The notes beneath the pieces were generated by a model that worked only from the letters and a program-made list of their open reading frames with translations, ran no database searches and was not told the origin of the DNA. DNA of 41,957 nucleotides, taken from positions 1-41,957 of the IMG/VR virus record IMGVR_UViG_3300042879_001711; one strand, 5' to 3'. How positions within the stretch are numbered: the first letter of the stretch is position 1; every line of letters begins with the position of its first letter. Shown piece after piece: positions 10,050 through 19,948 of this stretch. This DNA is from a virus. Both the position numbers and the translations under genes were made by a program.

Positions 10050-12104
10050 TCAGGTCCCCACCAGTGCCGGGTCTTCGTCCGTGTTGTCCGCGATCCGCTC
10101 GAGCAGGTCGACCTGCTGCTGCGCCAGCGACTTGGCGAAACCGAGGCCGCTGGCCGCTGCAGCAGAGAACGTGCCGACCACCTCGCCTCGCGACATGCCG
10201 GCAGCAGCGGCGCCGGCACCTTCGCGGATGCGTTGCTCGTTGCCGCCGGCTGCTCGCTCGGCTGCACGCTCGGCTGACGCTGCCAACGCCTCCGCCAGCG
10301 CGGCCTCTGCAGATTGCGTGGCACTGCGACGGTCGGCAGCTCGCTGCGCGTTGGCGGCCAGCCGGCCTTGGGCGGTCGCGTCGGCGGCTGCGTTCCTTGC
10401 GTTGATATTGGCCTGTGCCGCGGCAGCCGTGCGTTCGTTTTCCTGCATCGCTGCCGGGATCCGGCTTTCATAGCCTGGCCTCGCTTGTGCGCGTGCAGCC
10501 GACCGTGCTGACATCTCGTCGTTTACCTTGGCGTTTTCTTTTGCAAGGTCGTAGCCCTTCTGTATGAAGGACTGCACGTAGTTCCATGACTTGCGTACCG
10601 CTGACTCCATAGCGTCAAAAGCAGCCATAATCCCGTTAATGACGTTGTCGATAGCGCTGTAAAGAGTCGCACTCCACAAGTTTGTGCCTTGAACAATCCC
10701 CGACCACAGCGACTCCCATATGTTGGAAACAGCGGTCGACAGGTACGTAAACGTGTTCTGAAAAAACGCTACCCACGGGTCGACCTGCCCCATGAGGGCC
10801 TCGACGCCACGCGTCCAGCCAGCCTGCAGCCCGAGCCACAGGATGTCCATGGCACCAGATAGGTTGCCGGCGGCCAGTTCTTGGTACACGCCGTCGAACG
10901 TAGCCGTGGCGGTAGCGCCCAAGTCACGCAGCACGCCCATGGCATTGGACCCGGCGTCGACGAACGCTCCACCGATAGCCGACGCGATCTGGCCAAATCC
11001 GCCGGCCGCATAGATGGCAGCACCAGCCACGGCACCCAGTAGGCCTACGGCGATCGCCAGCGGGGCGTTGGCGGCCACCCAGGCGGCTAGGCTGGTCGCC
11101 GCCGCCACGGTCGTTTTCACGCCATACAGCACGGCACCGGCGGCTGCGGACACGAACGACGCCGCGAGCTGGTAGGCGAGCTTGACGGTCGAGACGAGCG
11201 GCGTCACGAGAGCAGAAAGTCCGAGGCTAACGTTTCGAAGTGCAAGACCTGCAGCTGTAAGTGCCGCGCCGACGCCAAACAGTGCAACGCCGAGAGTCAA
11301 CGCCTGCTCGACCATCTTTTTGTTTTCGGACACGTACTTCGACACGCTGCCGATCAAAAGTGCCACACCGGACGCCAGTCCAGACAACGCGGGCGCAACC
11401 GCAGCGCCGACGGTCATCGTGATGGCCTTCATGGCGGTGTGCAGCTCGCCAATGCTGTCATTAAGGCGGGCAGCCGCTTCTGCAGTGTTGGGGTCCATCA
11501 CAATGCCGAGTCGCTCGGCCTGTGCCATCAGGTCTCGTATACCTGCAGCGCCTCCTGCGAGCATCGGTATCAGTCCGGCGCCGGCCTTTCCGAACACGCC
11601 GATAGCTGCTGCCGCTCTCTGCCCTGGGTCCTCGATGCGTGACACGGCGTCCGCAAGCGTCAGAAATTGATCCTCGGGAGACATCCGCTGCAGTTTGCCG
11701 ATGTCCACGCCAAGGCGTTGCAGGCTTGCGGCCGCAGATTCATTCCCACGGGTCGCAGCGTCGAGCGCCCGCTGCATCGTGCGGATGCCATTTTCGAGCG
11801 TGCCCACGTCGGTGCCAGACTGACCGGCAGCAAATCCGAGCGAAGCTACTGCCTGCGTTGAAAGGCCTGTGCGCTGCGCCATCTTTTGGACGGCGTCACC
11901 GACCTCTGAGAAGGCAACGCCTGCACCGACGATTGGCGTGACAATCGCTGTGCCGGCGGCCATAAGCCGGTTGCCGATGGACATCATCGACGAGCCAAGC
12001 TGGCCGATGCGCTTATTCACCGAGTCGAGCGCCGCGAAAAGCAGCTTCGGGTCCGCCCCGATCTCGACGTAGACCTTGCCCTGGCGGACTGCGTTGGCAC
12101 TCAT
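10050..12104 (-). CDS. Tail tape measure protein
   Basis: The 684-residue protein has the standard order of a tape measure. A helical N-terminal part holds TMP-type repeats (SVNKRIGQLGSSMMSIGNRL; GDAVQKMAQRTGLS). A long hydrophobic middle follows at about residues 225-390, then an alanine-rich coiled-coil region. The end has the usual GLGFAKSLAQQQVDLLERIADNT pattern split over two helices. It sets tail length and enters the host envelope at DNA ejection. By the common rule of about 1.5 angstrom per residue the tail would be near 100 nm. It overlaps the end of the frameshifted chaperone frame by four bases. Confidence 0.95.
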   Translation of the reverse strand: MSANAVRQGKVYVEIGADPKLLFAALDSVNKRIGQLGSSMMSIGNRLMAAGTAIVTPIVGAGVAFSEVGDAVQKMAQRTGLSTQAVASLGFAAGQSGTDVGTLENGIRTMQRALDAATRGNESAAASLQRLGVDIGKLQRMSPEDQFLTLADAVSRIEDPGQRAAAAIGVFGKAGAGLIPMLAGGAAGIRDLMAQAERLGIVMDPNTAEAAARLNDSIGELHTAMKAITMTVGAAVAPALSGLASGVALLIGSVSKYVSENKKMVEQALTLGVALFGVGAALTAAGLALRNVSLGLSALVTPLVSTVKLAYQLAASFVSAAAGAVLYGVKTTVAAATSLAAWVAANAPLAIAVGLLGAVAGAAIYAAGGFGQIASAIGGAFVDAGSNAMGVLRDLGATATATFDGVYQELAAGNLSGAMDILWLGLQAGWTRGVEALMGQVDPWVAFFQNTFTYLSTAVSNIWESLWSGIVQGTNLWSATLYSAIDNVINGIMAAFDAMESAVRKSWNYVQSFIQKGYDLAKENAKVNDEMSARSAARAQARPGYESRIPAAMQENERTAAAAQANINARNAAADATAQGRLAANAQRAADRRSATQSAEAALAEALAASAERAAERAAGGNEQRIREGAGAAAAGMSRGEVVGTFSAAAASGLGFAKSLAQQQVDLLERIADNTDEDPALVGT

Positions 12105-12505
12105 GTTTTCACCTCATGCCAATTCGGCCCGAGCAGCTTGCGGATCTCGTCTGGCGTCGCCTGCCGCGGCGCCGCCTTTTTCGCGAACGGGTTGAACTCG
12201 ATCGGTTTGGCTTGCGCTTGTCCCTTGCTGCGATGCAGGTTGGCCTGCTGACTCATGAGCCACGCGACCCGCCACCACTCCTGCTCTAGACGAGCGTCGC
12301 GAGCGGCGAAGAGTCCACGGATGGTCCATCCGTCTGGGTTGACTCCGACGATTCCTGCGGCCTCGTAGATGGCGTCCCAGATTGTCCGAGCAGGGACTCG
12401 ACCGTCGTCTGTTGCAGCTGCGCCTCCGCCCGATTGGCCAGCTCGGCCTGCAGCTCGTCCATGCGTTCGACGAGCTGCTTGATCATGCGGCGGAGGCGGA
12501 GGGGG
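12101..12505 (-). CDS. Tail assembly chaperone T-frame (probable -1 frameshift product of 12286-12864)
   Basis: This frame has no ATG, GTG or TTG before the ATG at 12256, yet its sequence upstream of that codon is clearly coding: IWDAIYEAAGIVGVNP, GWTIRGLFAARDARLEQ and EWWRVAWLMSQQANLHRS, then IEFNPFAKK. The block resembles the T parts of G/GT tail chaperones, with an aromatic-rich helix, an AN.HR turn and a closing FNPF. It lies in the -1 frame of the upstream ORF and ends overlapping the tape-measure ATG, as GT extensions do. Coordinates start at the re-read base of the candidate slip site; fusion gives about 254 residues. The first 45 or so residues look like low-complexity linker. Confidence 0.75.
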   Translation of the reverse strand, partial: PPPPPPHDQAARRTHGRAAGRAGQSGGGAAATDDGRVPARTIWDAIYEAAGIVGVNPDGWTIRGLFAARDARLEQEWWRVAWLMSQQANLHRSKGQAQAKPIEFNPFAKKAAPRQATPDEIRKLLGPNWHEVKT

Positions 12506-12864
12506 AAAAAATCGACCAGCTCCTCCTCGAGTGCACGCTGCGCCGCCTCAAGCGAGTCACCGCGAAGCGCCTCCAAAAACTCTTCCTTCGTCAGCTTGCG
12601 CTCGTCGACCTGTCGGCACAGGATCGCGTAGAGCACCTCGCCAATCGTCGAGTAGCGTGAGCGGATGACCTCGAGGGCGCGTCCGATCGTCGAGACGTCG
12701 ATCAGGTCAAACGGAATCGACCGGTCGACCTTGCGGACGGAGCCGTCCGGCTGCTCTTCGTCCTCTTGGAGGTCGATGCGCACCAGGTCTTTCACCCTGG
12801 ATGCTGCACCGACCGTCATGACGACCCTCCACGGTCGCCCTTCGTCGTCCTTAAACTCGCGCAT
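12286..12864 (-). CDS. Tail assembly chaperone (G-like)
   Basis: The 192-residue acidic protein precedes the tape measure and begins MREFKDDEGRPWRVVMTVGAA, a start typical of short phage tail chaperones that coat the tape measure before tail-tube polymerisation. The core runs to about residue 155. The tail (GTPSTRPQESSESTQTDG) is a disordered Ser/Thr-rich extension. Codons 119-120 (FF) form T TTT TTC, a classical -1 slippery heptamer, and the -1 frame beyond carries the T-like part. Start ATG lies just after the upstream TAA. Confidence 0.85.
   Translation of the reverse strand: MREFKDDEGRPWRVVMTVGAASRVKDLVRIDLQEDEEQPDGSVRKVDRSIPFDLIDVSTIGRALEVIRSRYSTIGEVLYAILCRQVDERKLTKEEFLEALRGDSLEAAQRALEEELVDFFPLRLRRMIKQLVERMDELQAELANRAEAQLQQTTVESLLGQSGTPSTRPQESSESTQTDGPSVDSSPLATLV
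12505..12511 (-). promoter_or_regulatory. Candidate -1 ribosomal frameshift site T_TTT_TTC
   Basis: Read on the minus strand, the G-frame codons GAT TTT TTC CCC contain the heptamer T TTT TTC in exactly the X XXY YYZ register needed for simultaneous -1 slippage. A run of five C follows. The -1 frame downstream is open to the T-frame stop at 12101 and includes the conserved-looking T block. No downstream pseudoknot was worked out. The slip site lies upstream of about 70 further G-frame codons, which is farther than in lambda. Confidence 0.6.
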
Positions 12865-12866
12865 GG

Positions 12867-13220
12867 TTAAACCCTGAGCCCAGATCTAGTCAACGCACAC
12901 TCGACTGAGTAGCTCGTGACACCGTCGAGCGGGTTAGTTTCGGTTATGCTGGTCACCACGGCATCAAATACCCATCCGCCGGTGCCGCCGCTGACGGCCA
13001 CAAGCGTGCCGAGCGTCAGCTTGGTGATGTCGAGATTCGAGGAGTCGTTAATCTCAAACGACACCGTGGCGGCATAGCCTGTGGAGTAGACGGCCTGCTG
13101 CCGCACGCCAAACTCCTCCACCTCGATCGTGCGGGCACTCCCGCTCCACGTGACGTTTCTCACGCTCGTGATGGCACCGCCGACGGTCAGCGTCGCGTCC
13201 TTGCCGAGCGTGATCGCCAC
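12867..13220 (-). CDS. Tail-tube-like protein, copy 3
   Basis: The 117-residue protein begins AITLGKDATLTVGG after a GTG start and has the beta-strand pattern shared with its two upstream neighbours: an early V-x-V-S-N/E stretch, a middle TVSFEIND strand where the others have WEIECHD or IEVECVD, and a DGVTSYSVECALT ending. Tail-tube or major tail proteins normally occupy this slot directly before the chaperone pair. The three copies differ in sequence, so they are old paralogues rather than recent duplicates. This copy is closest to the chaperone gene. Confidence 0.7.
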   Translation of the reverse strand: MAITLGKDATLTVGGAITSVRNVTWSGSARTIEVEEFGVRQQAVYSTGYAATVSFEINDSSNLDITKLTLGTLVAVSGGTGGWVFDAVVTSITETNPLDGVTSYSVECALTRSGLRV

Positions 13221-13223
13221 GAG

Positions 13224-13547
13224 TCAGATGCCTCCCCGACGTGCGGTGATCGTGTACGTCACGGCGCCGTCGATGGACGCGTTCTCGGTCACGCCCATGA
13301 CCACGAAGCTGCTCGTTGGGCTATTGGTCTCGAGCTGCGCCATCACGCCCGTGGCGTCGTGGCACTCAATCTCCCAGGTCTGCGACTTGAATCCAGTCGA
13401 GAATGCACGATAGCCGACGGCACCGGTGCCGACGTTGCTGCGATTGCTGACGTCGACGACCTCGGCCTCCTCCGTGTACGTAGCCGAAATGACGCTGGCG
13501 CCGAACGGAGGAGCGCTGGCCGCTTTGAAGCCAAGGGTGATCGCCAT
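13224..13547 (-). CDS. Tail-tube-like protein, copy 2
   Basis: The 107-residue protein begins MAITLGFKAASAPP and shares with its neighbours the start MA-I/V-x-LG, the strand WEIECHD and the ending IDGAVTYTITARRGG. GGAG precedes the ATG by seven bases. It is presumably a tail-tube or tube-associated subunit. Which of the three is the main tube protein cannot be told from sequence. The lack of Gly/Pro-rich extra domains argues against a tail-tip role. Confidence 0.7.
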   Translation of the reverse strand: MAITLGFKAASAPPFGASVISATYTEEAEVVDVSNRSNVGTGAVGYRAFSTGFKSQTWEIECHDATGVMAQLETNSPTSSFVVMGVTENASIDGAVTYTITARRGGI

Positions 13548-13559
13548 GGTGGTCTCCGG

Positions 13560-13883
13560 TCAGGTCTGAGTCATAGCCCGTTGGGCGCTGACAGTGAACG
13601 TGATGATTCCGTCGATGGGCTGCGACTGGGCCACGTTGGTCACGACAAATTCGACGCTATTTCCGGTAGACGTGCCCGTAAGCGTGAACGTTTGGCCGAC
13701 CTCCTTGCCAGGGTCGTCAACGCACTCGACCTCGATGGTCTGCTCGACCATGGCCTTAATGAAACGGCGGTACGTGTCACCGAACTTGGTGACGTCCACC
13801 TCGTTCGCGGTGTTGTTCACCGTGATCGATCGGGCGTTGGACAAGCCCGAAACCGTGACGTCCTTGCCGAGCTGTACAGCCAT
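13560..13883 (-). CDS. Tail-tube-like protein, copy 1
   Basis: The 107-residue protein begins MAVQLGKDVTVSGLSNAR and has the strands EVDVTKFGD, TIEVECVDDPG and the end IDGIITFTVSAQRA, matching the two following genes in order. GGAG lies seven bases before the ATG. It follows 70 bases without a gene that contain a 15-base element shared with 29458-29472, so it may have its own expression signal as the first of the triplet. Tail-tube identity is inferred from position and the beta-rich pattern. Confidence 0.7.
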   Translation of the reverse strand: MAVQLGKDVTVSGLSNARSITVNNTANEVDVTKFGDTYRRFIKAMVEQTIEVECVDDPGKEVGQTFTLTGTSTGNSVEFVVTNVAQSQPIDGIITFTVSAQRAMTQT

Positions 13884-17812: not shown

Positions 17813-18763
17813 TCAGGCAGCCGCGTGGACGGCTGCGTGCCGCACCGTCTCGCGGATGCCGGCGGCCAGGGTGACGGACGGCTGCCAGCCCAGCAGGTGC
17901 TCAGCGAAGGCTGCGTCGACCAGGCTGCTGCCCAGATCGCCGGCTCGGGGCTTGCCGTGCACCGGCAGCGGCAGGGCACGGCCCGTGACGGCCTCGACCT
18001 CGACCCGCACCAGCTGCTCGAGCTGGGCCACGCTCGTGCCAACGCCGGTGCCCACGTTGATCGGAAACAGCCGCCCGTACGGCAGCTCTGCAGTCAGCGC
18101 CAGCACGTTGGCGGCGGCCACGTCCCGCACGTGCACGTAGTCCCGCACCTGGCTGCCAACGCCGTGGATCTGGCACGGCCGACCCTCCATCGCCGCCCGG
18201 CAGAAGATCGCCACGACGCCGGCCTCGCCGTGCGGATTCTGCCGTGGGCCGTAGACGTTTGCGTACCGCAGCGCCACGGCCTGCATGTGGTACCAGTGTG
18301 CGTGCCACGCTAGGTACCGCTCCGCCGTGAGCTTGGCCAGTCCGTACGGGCTGACAGGATCCCGGACGGCCTCCTCGACGGCCGGCTCGCGAACGTTGCC
18401 GTAGACGACGCCACCGGACGACGCGAACACGATCCGCCGGCAGTCATTCCGCACGGCGGCCGACACGACGTTTATCAGCCCGACGACGTTGACCTCGGCG
18501 TCGAATGCCACGTCTCGCACCGACCGACTCACGCTGATCTGCGCAGCCTGGTGGCAGATGGCTGTCGGTCGCACCTCTCGGACGACCCGCTCGACGTTGG
18601 CGGCATCCCGCACGTCGACGACGTGCACCGCAACGCCTGGCGGCACGCTGGCGCGGCTGCCGGTCGACAGGTCGTCGAGGACGGCGACATCGTGGCCCGC
18701 CGCGAGCAGGTGGTCGACGACGTGGCTGCCGATGAAGCCGGCGCCGCCGGTGACGAGGATCAT
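17813..18763 (-). CDS. NAD-dependent sugar epimerase/dehydratase (extended SDR, GalE-like)
   Basis: The 316-residue protein begins MILVTGGAGFIGSHVVDHLL with the GxxGxxG nucleotide-binding turn at 6-12. It has the SDR active site: Ser115/116 in FASSGGVVYG and YxxxK (Tyr140, Lys144) in SPYGLAKLTAERY. RYANVYGPRQNP and the VRDYVHVRDVA element fit the UDP-glucose 4-epimerase / dTDP-sugar group. It would change a nucleotide sugar for the glycosyltransferase downstream. Start ATG at 18763 overlaps the LamG gene stop as ATGA; the longer ORF to 18844 is a shadow. Confidence 0.9.
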   Translation of the reverse strand: MILVTGGAGFIGSHVVDHLLAAGHDVAVLDDLSTGSRASVPPGVAVHVVDVRDAANVERVVREVRPTAICHQAAQISVSRSVRDVAFDAEVNVVGLINVVSAAVRNDCRRIVFASSGGVVYGNVREPAVEEAVRDPVSPYGLAKLTAERYLAWHAHWYHMQAVALRYANVYGPRQNPHGEAGVVAIFCRAAMEGRPCQIHGVGSQVRDYVHVRDVAAANVLALTAELPYGRLFPINVGTGVGTSVAQLEQLVRVEVEAVTGRALPLPVHGKPRAGDLGSSLVDAAFAEHLLGWQPSVTLAAGIRETVRHAAVHAAA

Positions 18764-19566
18764 GAGTCTGGGAACGCTGCCGTTGGTGGCGTGAAACCTG
18801 CCGTGTACCGAGCGACGCCGACCGTCAGTCGGAACTCGTCGCAATACCCGTCGACCTCTTGGGTGCCGTCTGCGGCGCCGGCCATAATGCTCACGTCGCC
18901 GCTTGTCCCAATCGCGCCAGCACTCACGGTGGTCGTCGTGCCCGCGGATCCGTCGACAAAAGTACGGATCGTGTTGCCGTCACGCACCATCGCAATGTGG
19001 TGCCACGTTGACGTCGATACGGTGAGGTTGGGGTCAAAGTCCAATACTTGCCAGTCGGTGCCTGTCGAGTTGCTGATATAGAGCCGCACGTCGCCGGCGA
19101 TGTGCGTCAGTAACGCGCCGCCGATCCCCACGTTGCTTGAGCGGTGCGCCCACAGCGTGCGAATGCCACTCTGCAACGAGTTGAAATAGAACCATCCCTC
19201 GATCGTGAAATTACCGCTGCCGACCGCAAGACCTGCGCCGGATGCCCTTAGGTAGTCGCCAGTACCGTCAAACGAGCCGCTTGACCCGCCAAACTTGCTC
19301 TGCGTGGTGCTGATCTGGCCGCCGCCCTGCCTCGTCACAGTCTTGGGCGACCCGCTGCTGTCGGTAAACGTTGTCGATGCGTTGCTGCCATCCATATGCA
19401 AGAGCAGGGACACACTACTAAAGTTTGGGTCGCCTGCGTTAGATGGCGGCCACGTTGCGCCGCGCTTATACCAGTAGTGCAAGTGCAGCGGCCAAATGCC
19501 GACTGCACTTGACGTAGTTGGCGTTGGAGGACGAATCCCGATGTAACTGCCAGGTATGCGCCCCAT
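18760..19566 (-). CDS. LamG / concanavalin A-like lectin-fold virion protein
   Basis: The 268-residue protein has a short N-terminal part and from about residue 55 a LamG-like beta-sandwich: SVSLLLHMDGSNASTTFTD, FDGTGDYLRA, NFTIEGWFYFN, WHHIAMVRDGNTIRTFVDG and a closing DEFRLTVGVARYT. That order is the standard one for LamG_3 jellyroll domains, which bind carbohydrates on many phage fibres and surface proteins. It lies between a small decoration-like protein and the sugar cassette, suggesting a role in host surface recognition. GGAG lies upstream of the ATG at 19566. Confidence 0.82.
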   Translation of the reverse strand: MGRIPGSYIGIRPPTPTTSSAVGIWPLHLHYWYKRGATWPPSNAGDPNFSSVSLLLHMDGSNASTTFTDSSGSPKTVTRQGGGQISTTQSKFGGSSGSFDGTGDYLRASGAGLAVGSGNFTIEGWFYFNSLQSGIRTLWAHRSSNVGIGGALLTHIAGDVRLYISNSTGTDWQVLDFDPNLTVSTSTWHHIAMVRDGNTIRTFVDGSAGTTTTVSAGAIGTSGDVSIMAGAADGTQEVDGYCDEFRLTVGVARYTAGFTPPTAAFPDS

Positions 19567-19570
19567 AGAG

Positions 19571-19948
19571 TTACGAGATCTCCAAGTAGCTGCACACAAA
19601 CTCGAGGTCGTTGGACGCCGATGGCGTAACGACAATCGACCGATCCTCTTCGAGCCATATCGTCGTGTCCTTGCTGACGACCACCAAGGTGGCGTCGGCC
19701 GGGACTGTCACGTCCGAGCAGATAGCATGACCTGTGCCGCCACCATCATCCTGACTGTGCAGCTTTACCGTCACGTCACATTGAAGTGATCCGTCGACAT
19801 TGGCGACGTAGAGCGACTGCACCTGTAACGCCTTGCCAGAGCTGGCCGCGTTGTTAAGCAGCACCGTGCCAGTAGCGCCTGTGACGGCGCGCAAATACGC
19901 GGTCTTCGCGGTAATGGTCGTGGGTCCGACGATGTTGGGAGCAGCCAT
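19571..19948 (-). CDS. Small beta-rich virion protein
   Basis: The 125-residue protein begins MAAPNIVGPTTITAKTAYLR and has strands LQVQSLYVANVDGSLQCDV and ATLVVVSKDTTIWLEEDRS, ending with FVCSYLEIS. I recognise this style from small phage virion proteins of unknown role placed near fibres. It appears to be a single beta-sandwich domain. It overlaps neither neighbour, with four bases before the LamG gene and seven after the short collagen-like gene. Confidence 0.65.
   Translation of the reverse strand: MAAPNIVGPTTITAKTAYLRAVTGATGTVLLNNAASSGKALQVQSLYVANVDGSLQCDVTVKLHSQDDGGGTGHAICSDVTVPADATLVVVSKDTTIWLEEDRSIVVTPSASNDLEFVCSYLEIS

Follow-up and report, generated by a model that had tools for sequence, protein, structure and literature searches.

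The locus at 12101-12864 of the analyzed window is best read as a G/GT tail assembly chaperone pair expressed by programmed -1 ribosomal frameshifting, a reading to which we assign a probability of about 95% on comparative sequence evidence. The window is the whole stretch of DNA under analysis, 41,957 nt corresponding to positions 1 to 41,957 of the IMG/VR virus record IMGVR_UViG_3300042879_001711, and all window coordinates given below refer to its minus strand. An earlier, sequence-only reading of this DNA had proposed that the two chaperone parts are joined at the slippery heptamer T_TTT_TTC. Comparison with relatives upholds this proposal: the heptamer is kept in all 85 viral stretches compared and in 49 of 70 planctomycete loci.

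The G-type chaperone is encoded by an ORF with an ATG start (12286..12864), identified from the ORF list and from its relatives, whose unshifted product has 192 aa and 21.7 kDa. Relatives of G, with 30-100% identity, occur in viral contigs and in planctomycete genomes. The T-type domain, which would form the C-terminal part of GT, lies in the -1 frame (12101..12385) and is conserved in all loci. In the window this frame stays open between stops at 12550 and 12103-12101 and, as had been observed from the letters alone, offers no ATG, GTG or TTG until T residue 85 (M of MSQQ). The computed GT product has ~254 aa and 28.4 kDa. A tail tape-measure gene follows directly after G/GT (10050..12104; PHROG tape-measure families, best E 7.6e-33), and three tandem short ORFs of similar size precede G (12867..13883). 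The latter are major-tail-protein-like by PHROG comparison, with weak major-tail matches in two of the three (E 0.0003 and 0.002), and may be tail-tube genes in tandem or paralogues. Judged by its PHROG neighbors, the position of G/GT between the major-tail-like ORFs and the tape-measure gene is that of lambda-type pairs.

Protein family searches link T only weakly to one known family and leave G without a usable one. Phage_tail_T (PF06223) is the only Pfam family matched by T, weakly and in 6 of 17 members (best E 0.0038); the window's own T has no Pfam match. For G, Pfam, PHROGs and NCBIfam yielded no usable family, with only non-significant chaperone matches in PHROG and NCBIfam, and no match was found among 50,697 phage records. 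The AlphaFold model of G is poor (pLDDT 51), and that of T (pLDDT 69.8) consists of a disordered linker at T 1-36, with pLDDT under 50, and a helical domain at T 44-92. Foldseek searches against PDB and BFVD returned nothing significant; two BFVD proteins named "Minor tail T domain" are among the weak matches. Because G has no usable family, its model is poor and the Foldseek searches were null, the chaperone roles suggested here for G and GT rest on gene order, the weak PF06223 match and analogy. On the same strand, upstream of the tail module, lie genes for a methyltransferase (PF13578; 16161-16796) and a sugar-nucleotide epimerase (PF01370, E 3.4e-57; 17813-18844) with one unassigned ORF between them, possibly a glycan-modifying cassette. 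A Concanavalin-like lectin/LamG domain protein (PF13385, E 6e-17; 18760-19635) adjoins these sugar genes.

The slippery heptamer T_TTT_TTC lies at 12505..12511 and is followed by CCC. As previously proposed, its register is correct, the first T being the third base of G codon 118. The claim that this is the sole canonical slippery site in the locus needs slight amending, in that a second heptamer, T_TTC_CCC, overlaps it 3 nt later (12508-12502); a slip at either gives the same product. The G stop lies 216 nt past the heptamer, or 72 codons against the roughly 70 first estimated. Upstream, a Shine-Dalgarno-like run AGGAGGAG (12520..12527) ends about 8-10 nt before the heptamer and is a candidate stimulator. 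It is strong in the window clade, yet no stronger than synonymous recoding predicts, its strength being explained by Glu codons, and stimulation of the shift by this run is possible.

Two IMG/VR scans gave 131 loci with both G and T parts. The window and 84 distinct viral relatives form a comparison set of 85 G-T stretches, which fall into 22 groups at 90% and 15 at 80% identity. GATTTTTTCCC is present in register in all 85. This invariance is not a matter of codon preference, since in the genes of the viral set Asp is encoded by GAT in only 15% of cases and Phe by TTT in 33%. The distance from the first base of the heptamer to the G stop varies from 71 to 105 codons across the set. Stops in the -1 frame are common on one side of the heptamer and lacking on the other: in the 22 representatives the 2507 upstream codons contain 47, whereas the 880 downstream codons (40 each) contain none and synonymous recoding of G predicts 16.7 there. 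The chance of this absence is ~2e-8 for the 22 representatives and ~5e-6 for the 15 lineages, values that serve as guides only because the lineages are related. In two viral loci (L131 and L133) a TGA in the -1 frame immediately precedes the heptamer and so sets a 5' limit to the shift. By codon-position diversity, the G frame is constrained up to about residue 155 and the T frame from about residue 160, with the switch near G residue 158. Comparison of these sequences thereby establishes the site, the frame and the direction of the shift.

The family extends to distant loci in planctomycete genomes. A pattern-based scan of genome contigs with the T profile yielded three loci, all in planctomycete metagenome-assembled genomes (MAGs; Phycisphaerales, Pirellulales) and all with TTTTTTC in register, and a G-profile search of planctomycete genomes found the family in 38 of 392. 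In each of 70 distinct planctomycete G-T loci T is in the -1 frame. The homologous site reads T_TTT_TTC in 49 of them, T_TTC_TGC in 11, T_TTT_TCC in 4, T_TTT_ACC in 3, T_TTC_TTC in 2 and G_TAC_TGC in 1. The sequence-only reading had named as contrary evidence relatives that keep T and lack the heptamer, or that start T on its own; such cases were sought in ~150 loci, and 20 of the 21 planctomycete loci that have lost the canonical heptamer keep T_TTY at the same place. The codon before Phe is GAT, GCT, TCT, GGT, AAT, AGT or TAT, so that the residue is D, A, S, G, N or Y, and its third base, ahead of the Phe TTY, is T in 69 of 70 loci versus 11% of codons ending in T in these genes. Since this T is kept while the preceding residue changes, selection acts on the nucleotide and not on the amino acid. 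The kept T before TTY is, at the level of comparative genomics, direct evidence of selection for a Phe tRNA slipping from TTY to TTT. The U_UU.Y tetramer shifting that the T_TTY variants need is already known from E. coli reporters, where U_UU.Y ranks second among tetramer classes in its tendency to shift and ZZN codons made up wholly of pyrimidines shift well (PMC4066793).

Between the site and the T block, the planctomycete set (43 lineages) has no stop in the -1 frame versus 45 expected from pooled codon usage, and a -1 stop stands directly before the site in 5 loci. The site lies 138-267 nt from the G stop (median 184; 70 loci). The sole locus of the 70 without T_TTY at the shift position (L168; GAG TAC TGC CCG) still has T in the -1 frame, with a -1 stop ~10 nt before that position, and possibly uses another shift mechanism or belongs to a decayed prophage. 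One 7.4-Mb planctomycete contig (genome G354, contig C1) carries eight copies of the G/GT locus (including loci L151, L177, L180, L181, L184 and L185) at 2.68, 2.84, 2.92, 3.07, 3.13, 3.36, 3.70 and 5.70 Mb. DNA identity among the six copies compared is 84-88% over as much as 3 kb, and the copies may represent many related prophages or a spreading tail element. The phage represented by the window probably infects planctomycete bacteria, because among the genomes searched homologues occur only in planctomycetes, other phyla being covered only by the pattern-based T-profile scan.

Downstream of the heptamer, after a spacer of 6 nt (12499..12504), lies a predicted stimulatory stem with the GC-rich 5' arm CGCCUCCGCC (12489..12498) and the 3' arm GGCGGAGGCG (12421..12430). 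Spacers between heptamer and stimulator usually measure 5-9 nt (PMC5009743), and the canonical bacterial -1 signal, X_XXY_YYZ plus a downstream structure at 5-9 nt, is matched here by T_TTT_TTC, the 6-nt spacer and the predicted stem. The suggested fold of the 60 bases after 12505 is too short to reveal this conserved stem, the 3' arm lying 75-84 nt past the heptamer. Short-window folding (50 and 80 nt in 20-nt steps) gave no special signal, and the long-range stem was seen only when the folded segment began right behind the heptamer and extended to ~90 nt. The fold in the window has an energy of -49.9 kcal/mol and a z of -3.7 against dinucleotide shuffles. An inner 10-bp hairpin within the long stem-loop (12450..12478), present in both the minimum-energy and the centroid fold, belongs to the window clade only and is not conserved in other clades.

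Two stem designs occur among the viral representatives. Class I comprises 16 of them, and in 15 the duplex exceeds in strength at least 96.7% of the alternatives obtained by synonymously recoding G (P <=0.033), so that the protein sequence does not account for the stem. Across 26 sequences 89.6% of cells pair, versus 41-49% with the partner slid. Covariation is modest, with a compensatory change at one pair, the outer C-G becoming G-C in 6 of the 26. In the other six representatives, a second clade (class II), GGCUGCG at the same place pairs locally with CGCAGCC. This local hairpin exceeds the synonymous expectation in 5 of 6 (P <=0.037), and no covariation was found in it. In planctomycete loci the 99 nt after the site fold more stably than recoded versions, with a mean z of -1.16 compared with -0.32 for an upstream control (Wilcoxon P 0.0009). 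Comparison with recoded sequences thus establishes selection on the RNA structure.

The same observations weigh on three other ways in which T could be produced. The sequence-only reading had itself allowed for a shift farther downstream, at a non-canonical site. Were this site near G residue 158, immediately ahead of the conserved T block, GT would keep the C-terminal helix of G. The low-complexity -1 stretch ahead of such a site fits this idea, as does the frame constraint, which switches near residue 155-160 as a shift there would predict. A later shift would, however, leave unexplained the invariant heptamer and the T_TTY that is kept despite the changing residue, the stop-free -1 linker in all lineages and the -1 stops ending directly 5' of the heptamer in 7 loci, and the viral relatives show no conserved heptamer closer to the T block than T_TTT_TTC. 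With the -1 frame free of stops from the heptamer on, we rejected a later site as very improbable.

Slippage of the RNA polymerase on the run of six T would instead produce mixed mRNAs, some read in the -1 frame, and thus a similar product. The six consecutive T are what such a process would use, but the run is exactly six and never longer in any of the 85 viral stretches or of the 49 planctomycete loci with the canonical heptamer, it comes to just three or four T where the site is T_TTC_TGC or T_TTT_ACC, and both the codon register and an RNA stem at ribosomal spacing are kept. Transcriptional slippage was rejected on these grounds and appears about as improbable as a later site. Least probable of all is a separate start for T, at MSQQ or at a non-AUG codon, with its translation coupled to termination of G. 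The ATG at 12256, 30 nt past the G stop, could serve such a start; it lies within the conserved T helix, has no clear ribosome site and is missing in many relatives, and 66 of 70 planctomycete loci have no ATG, GTG or TTG in the T frame between the site and the T block. Independent initiation was rejected because that ATG falls inside the T helix and start codons are mostly absent in the relatives.

Programmed -1 ribosomal frameshifting at T_TTT_TTC remains the preferred reading, and from it we infer that ribosomes slip in the cell, how often they do so, that they pause and what G and GT do, as follows. The majority of ribosomes would not shift and would make the 192-aa G. A fraction would be paused by the GC-rich stem starting 6 nt past T_TTT_TTC and would slip back by one base with tRNA-Phe in the P and A sites, giving GT. 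This product would begin with G residues 1-118 and the two Phe encoded at the site, followed by a flexible Pro/Gly/Arg-rich linker of roughly 40 residues and the T domain. By analogy with lambda (PMC5009743), G might coat the tape-measure protein and GT might recruit the tail-tube subunit.

The stretch between the site and the T domain (12386..12504) is dual-coded, as judged from codon-position diversity, disorder prediction and the lack of -1 stops. In the G frame it encodes a conserved predicted helix (G 121-158), and in the -1 frame the Pro/Gly/Arg-rich GT linker, which is predicted to be disordered. With 72 codons between the site and the G stop, GT would lack this conserved C-terminal helix of G, and G and GT would carry alternative C-termini. 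We tentatively propose, as a conjecture somewhat short of even odds, that in this planctomycete phage family the shift exchanges C-termini rather than adding one. The G-only helix would be encoded in the stem-forming RNA, so that ~120 nt serve the G helix, the GT linker and the frameshift signal together, and its function would be specific to G, for example in G-G or G-tape-measure contacts that GT must avoid.

With these loci, planctomycete phages gain a large family of tail chaperones that use frameshifting. Standard annotation misses it, since G is not named by any PHROG or NCBIfam model and T lacks a start codon. The occurrence of T_TTT_TTC, T_TTT_TCC, T_TTC_TGC and T_TTT_ACC at one homologous site, with at least two stem designs, offers a ready set for dissecting bacterial -1 signals. 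The family also indicates that at least one phage group commonly places its shift sites at a long distance from the G stop, beyond the training range of the prediction tool PRFect.

Frameshifted G/GT pairs are widespread, and several known systems share parts of the present arrangement. In phages with related tape-measure proteins (L214, ctUhy936; L215, Vibrio phage K303; L216, Alteromonas phage PB15) the tape-measure gene is likewise preceded by a small ORF with a T-like ORF in its -1 frame, but the candidate sites are 3-30 nt before the G stop, and G and T are not recognizably homologous to those described here. The bacterial signals of the IS3 family and dnaX resemble ours in the heptamer, the downstream stem at short spacing and the SD-like run ~10 nt upstream; they serve other genes, and selection on the SD element is not seen here. 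With lambda gpG/gpGT the locus shares the order of major tail protein, G, T in the -1 frame without its own start and tape measure, and the lambda T family is the PF06223 Phage_tail_T that the T block weakly matches. Pairs of the lambda type are characterized by two proteins produced at a fixed ratio, which tails require and virions lack. In lambda, however, the shift occurs near the 3' end of G and GT keeps nearly all of G (PMC5009743), whereas GT here would lose >70 G residues, including the conserved predicted helix.

A shift close to the 3' end of G is a usual but non-defining trait of G/GT pairs, and it is absent here, with 216 nt in the window and 138-267 nt in the 70 planctomycete loci. 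Published means for the distance from site to G stop are 26 nt (SEA-PHAGES set) and 36 nt (Xu set) (PMC10885494). Set against these 26-36 nt, the earlier remark on an unusually far upstream position is borne out; the feature is not unique, as SPP1 is alike (PMC6316719). In SPP1, gp17.5 (173 aa) and gp17.5* (297 aa) share their first 112 aa, with UUUUUUC as the putative -1 site (PMC6316719). As here, a G/GT analogue precedes the tape-measure gene and the same heptamer lies ~61 codons before the G stop (PMC6316719); SPP1 differs in its Gram-positive host, and the likeness is drawn from the published description. Because SPP1, an accepted G/GT analogue, departs from the usual pattern likewise, a long distance between site and stop does not exclude membership among G/GT pairs. 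Since SPP1 has the same layout, the mechanism itself is already known; within the reach of our searches, what is new is the family with its host group, the stem under selection and the variety of sequences at the site.
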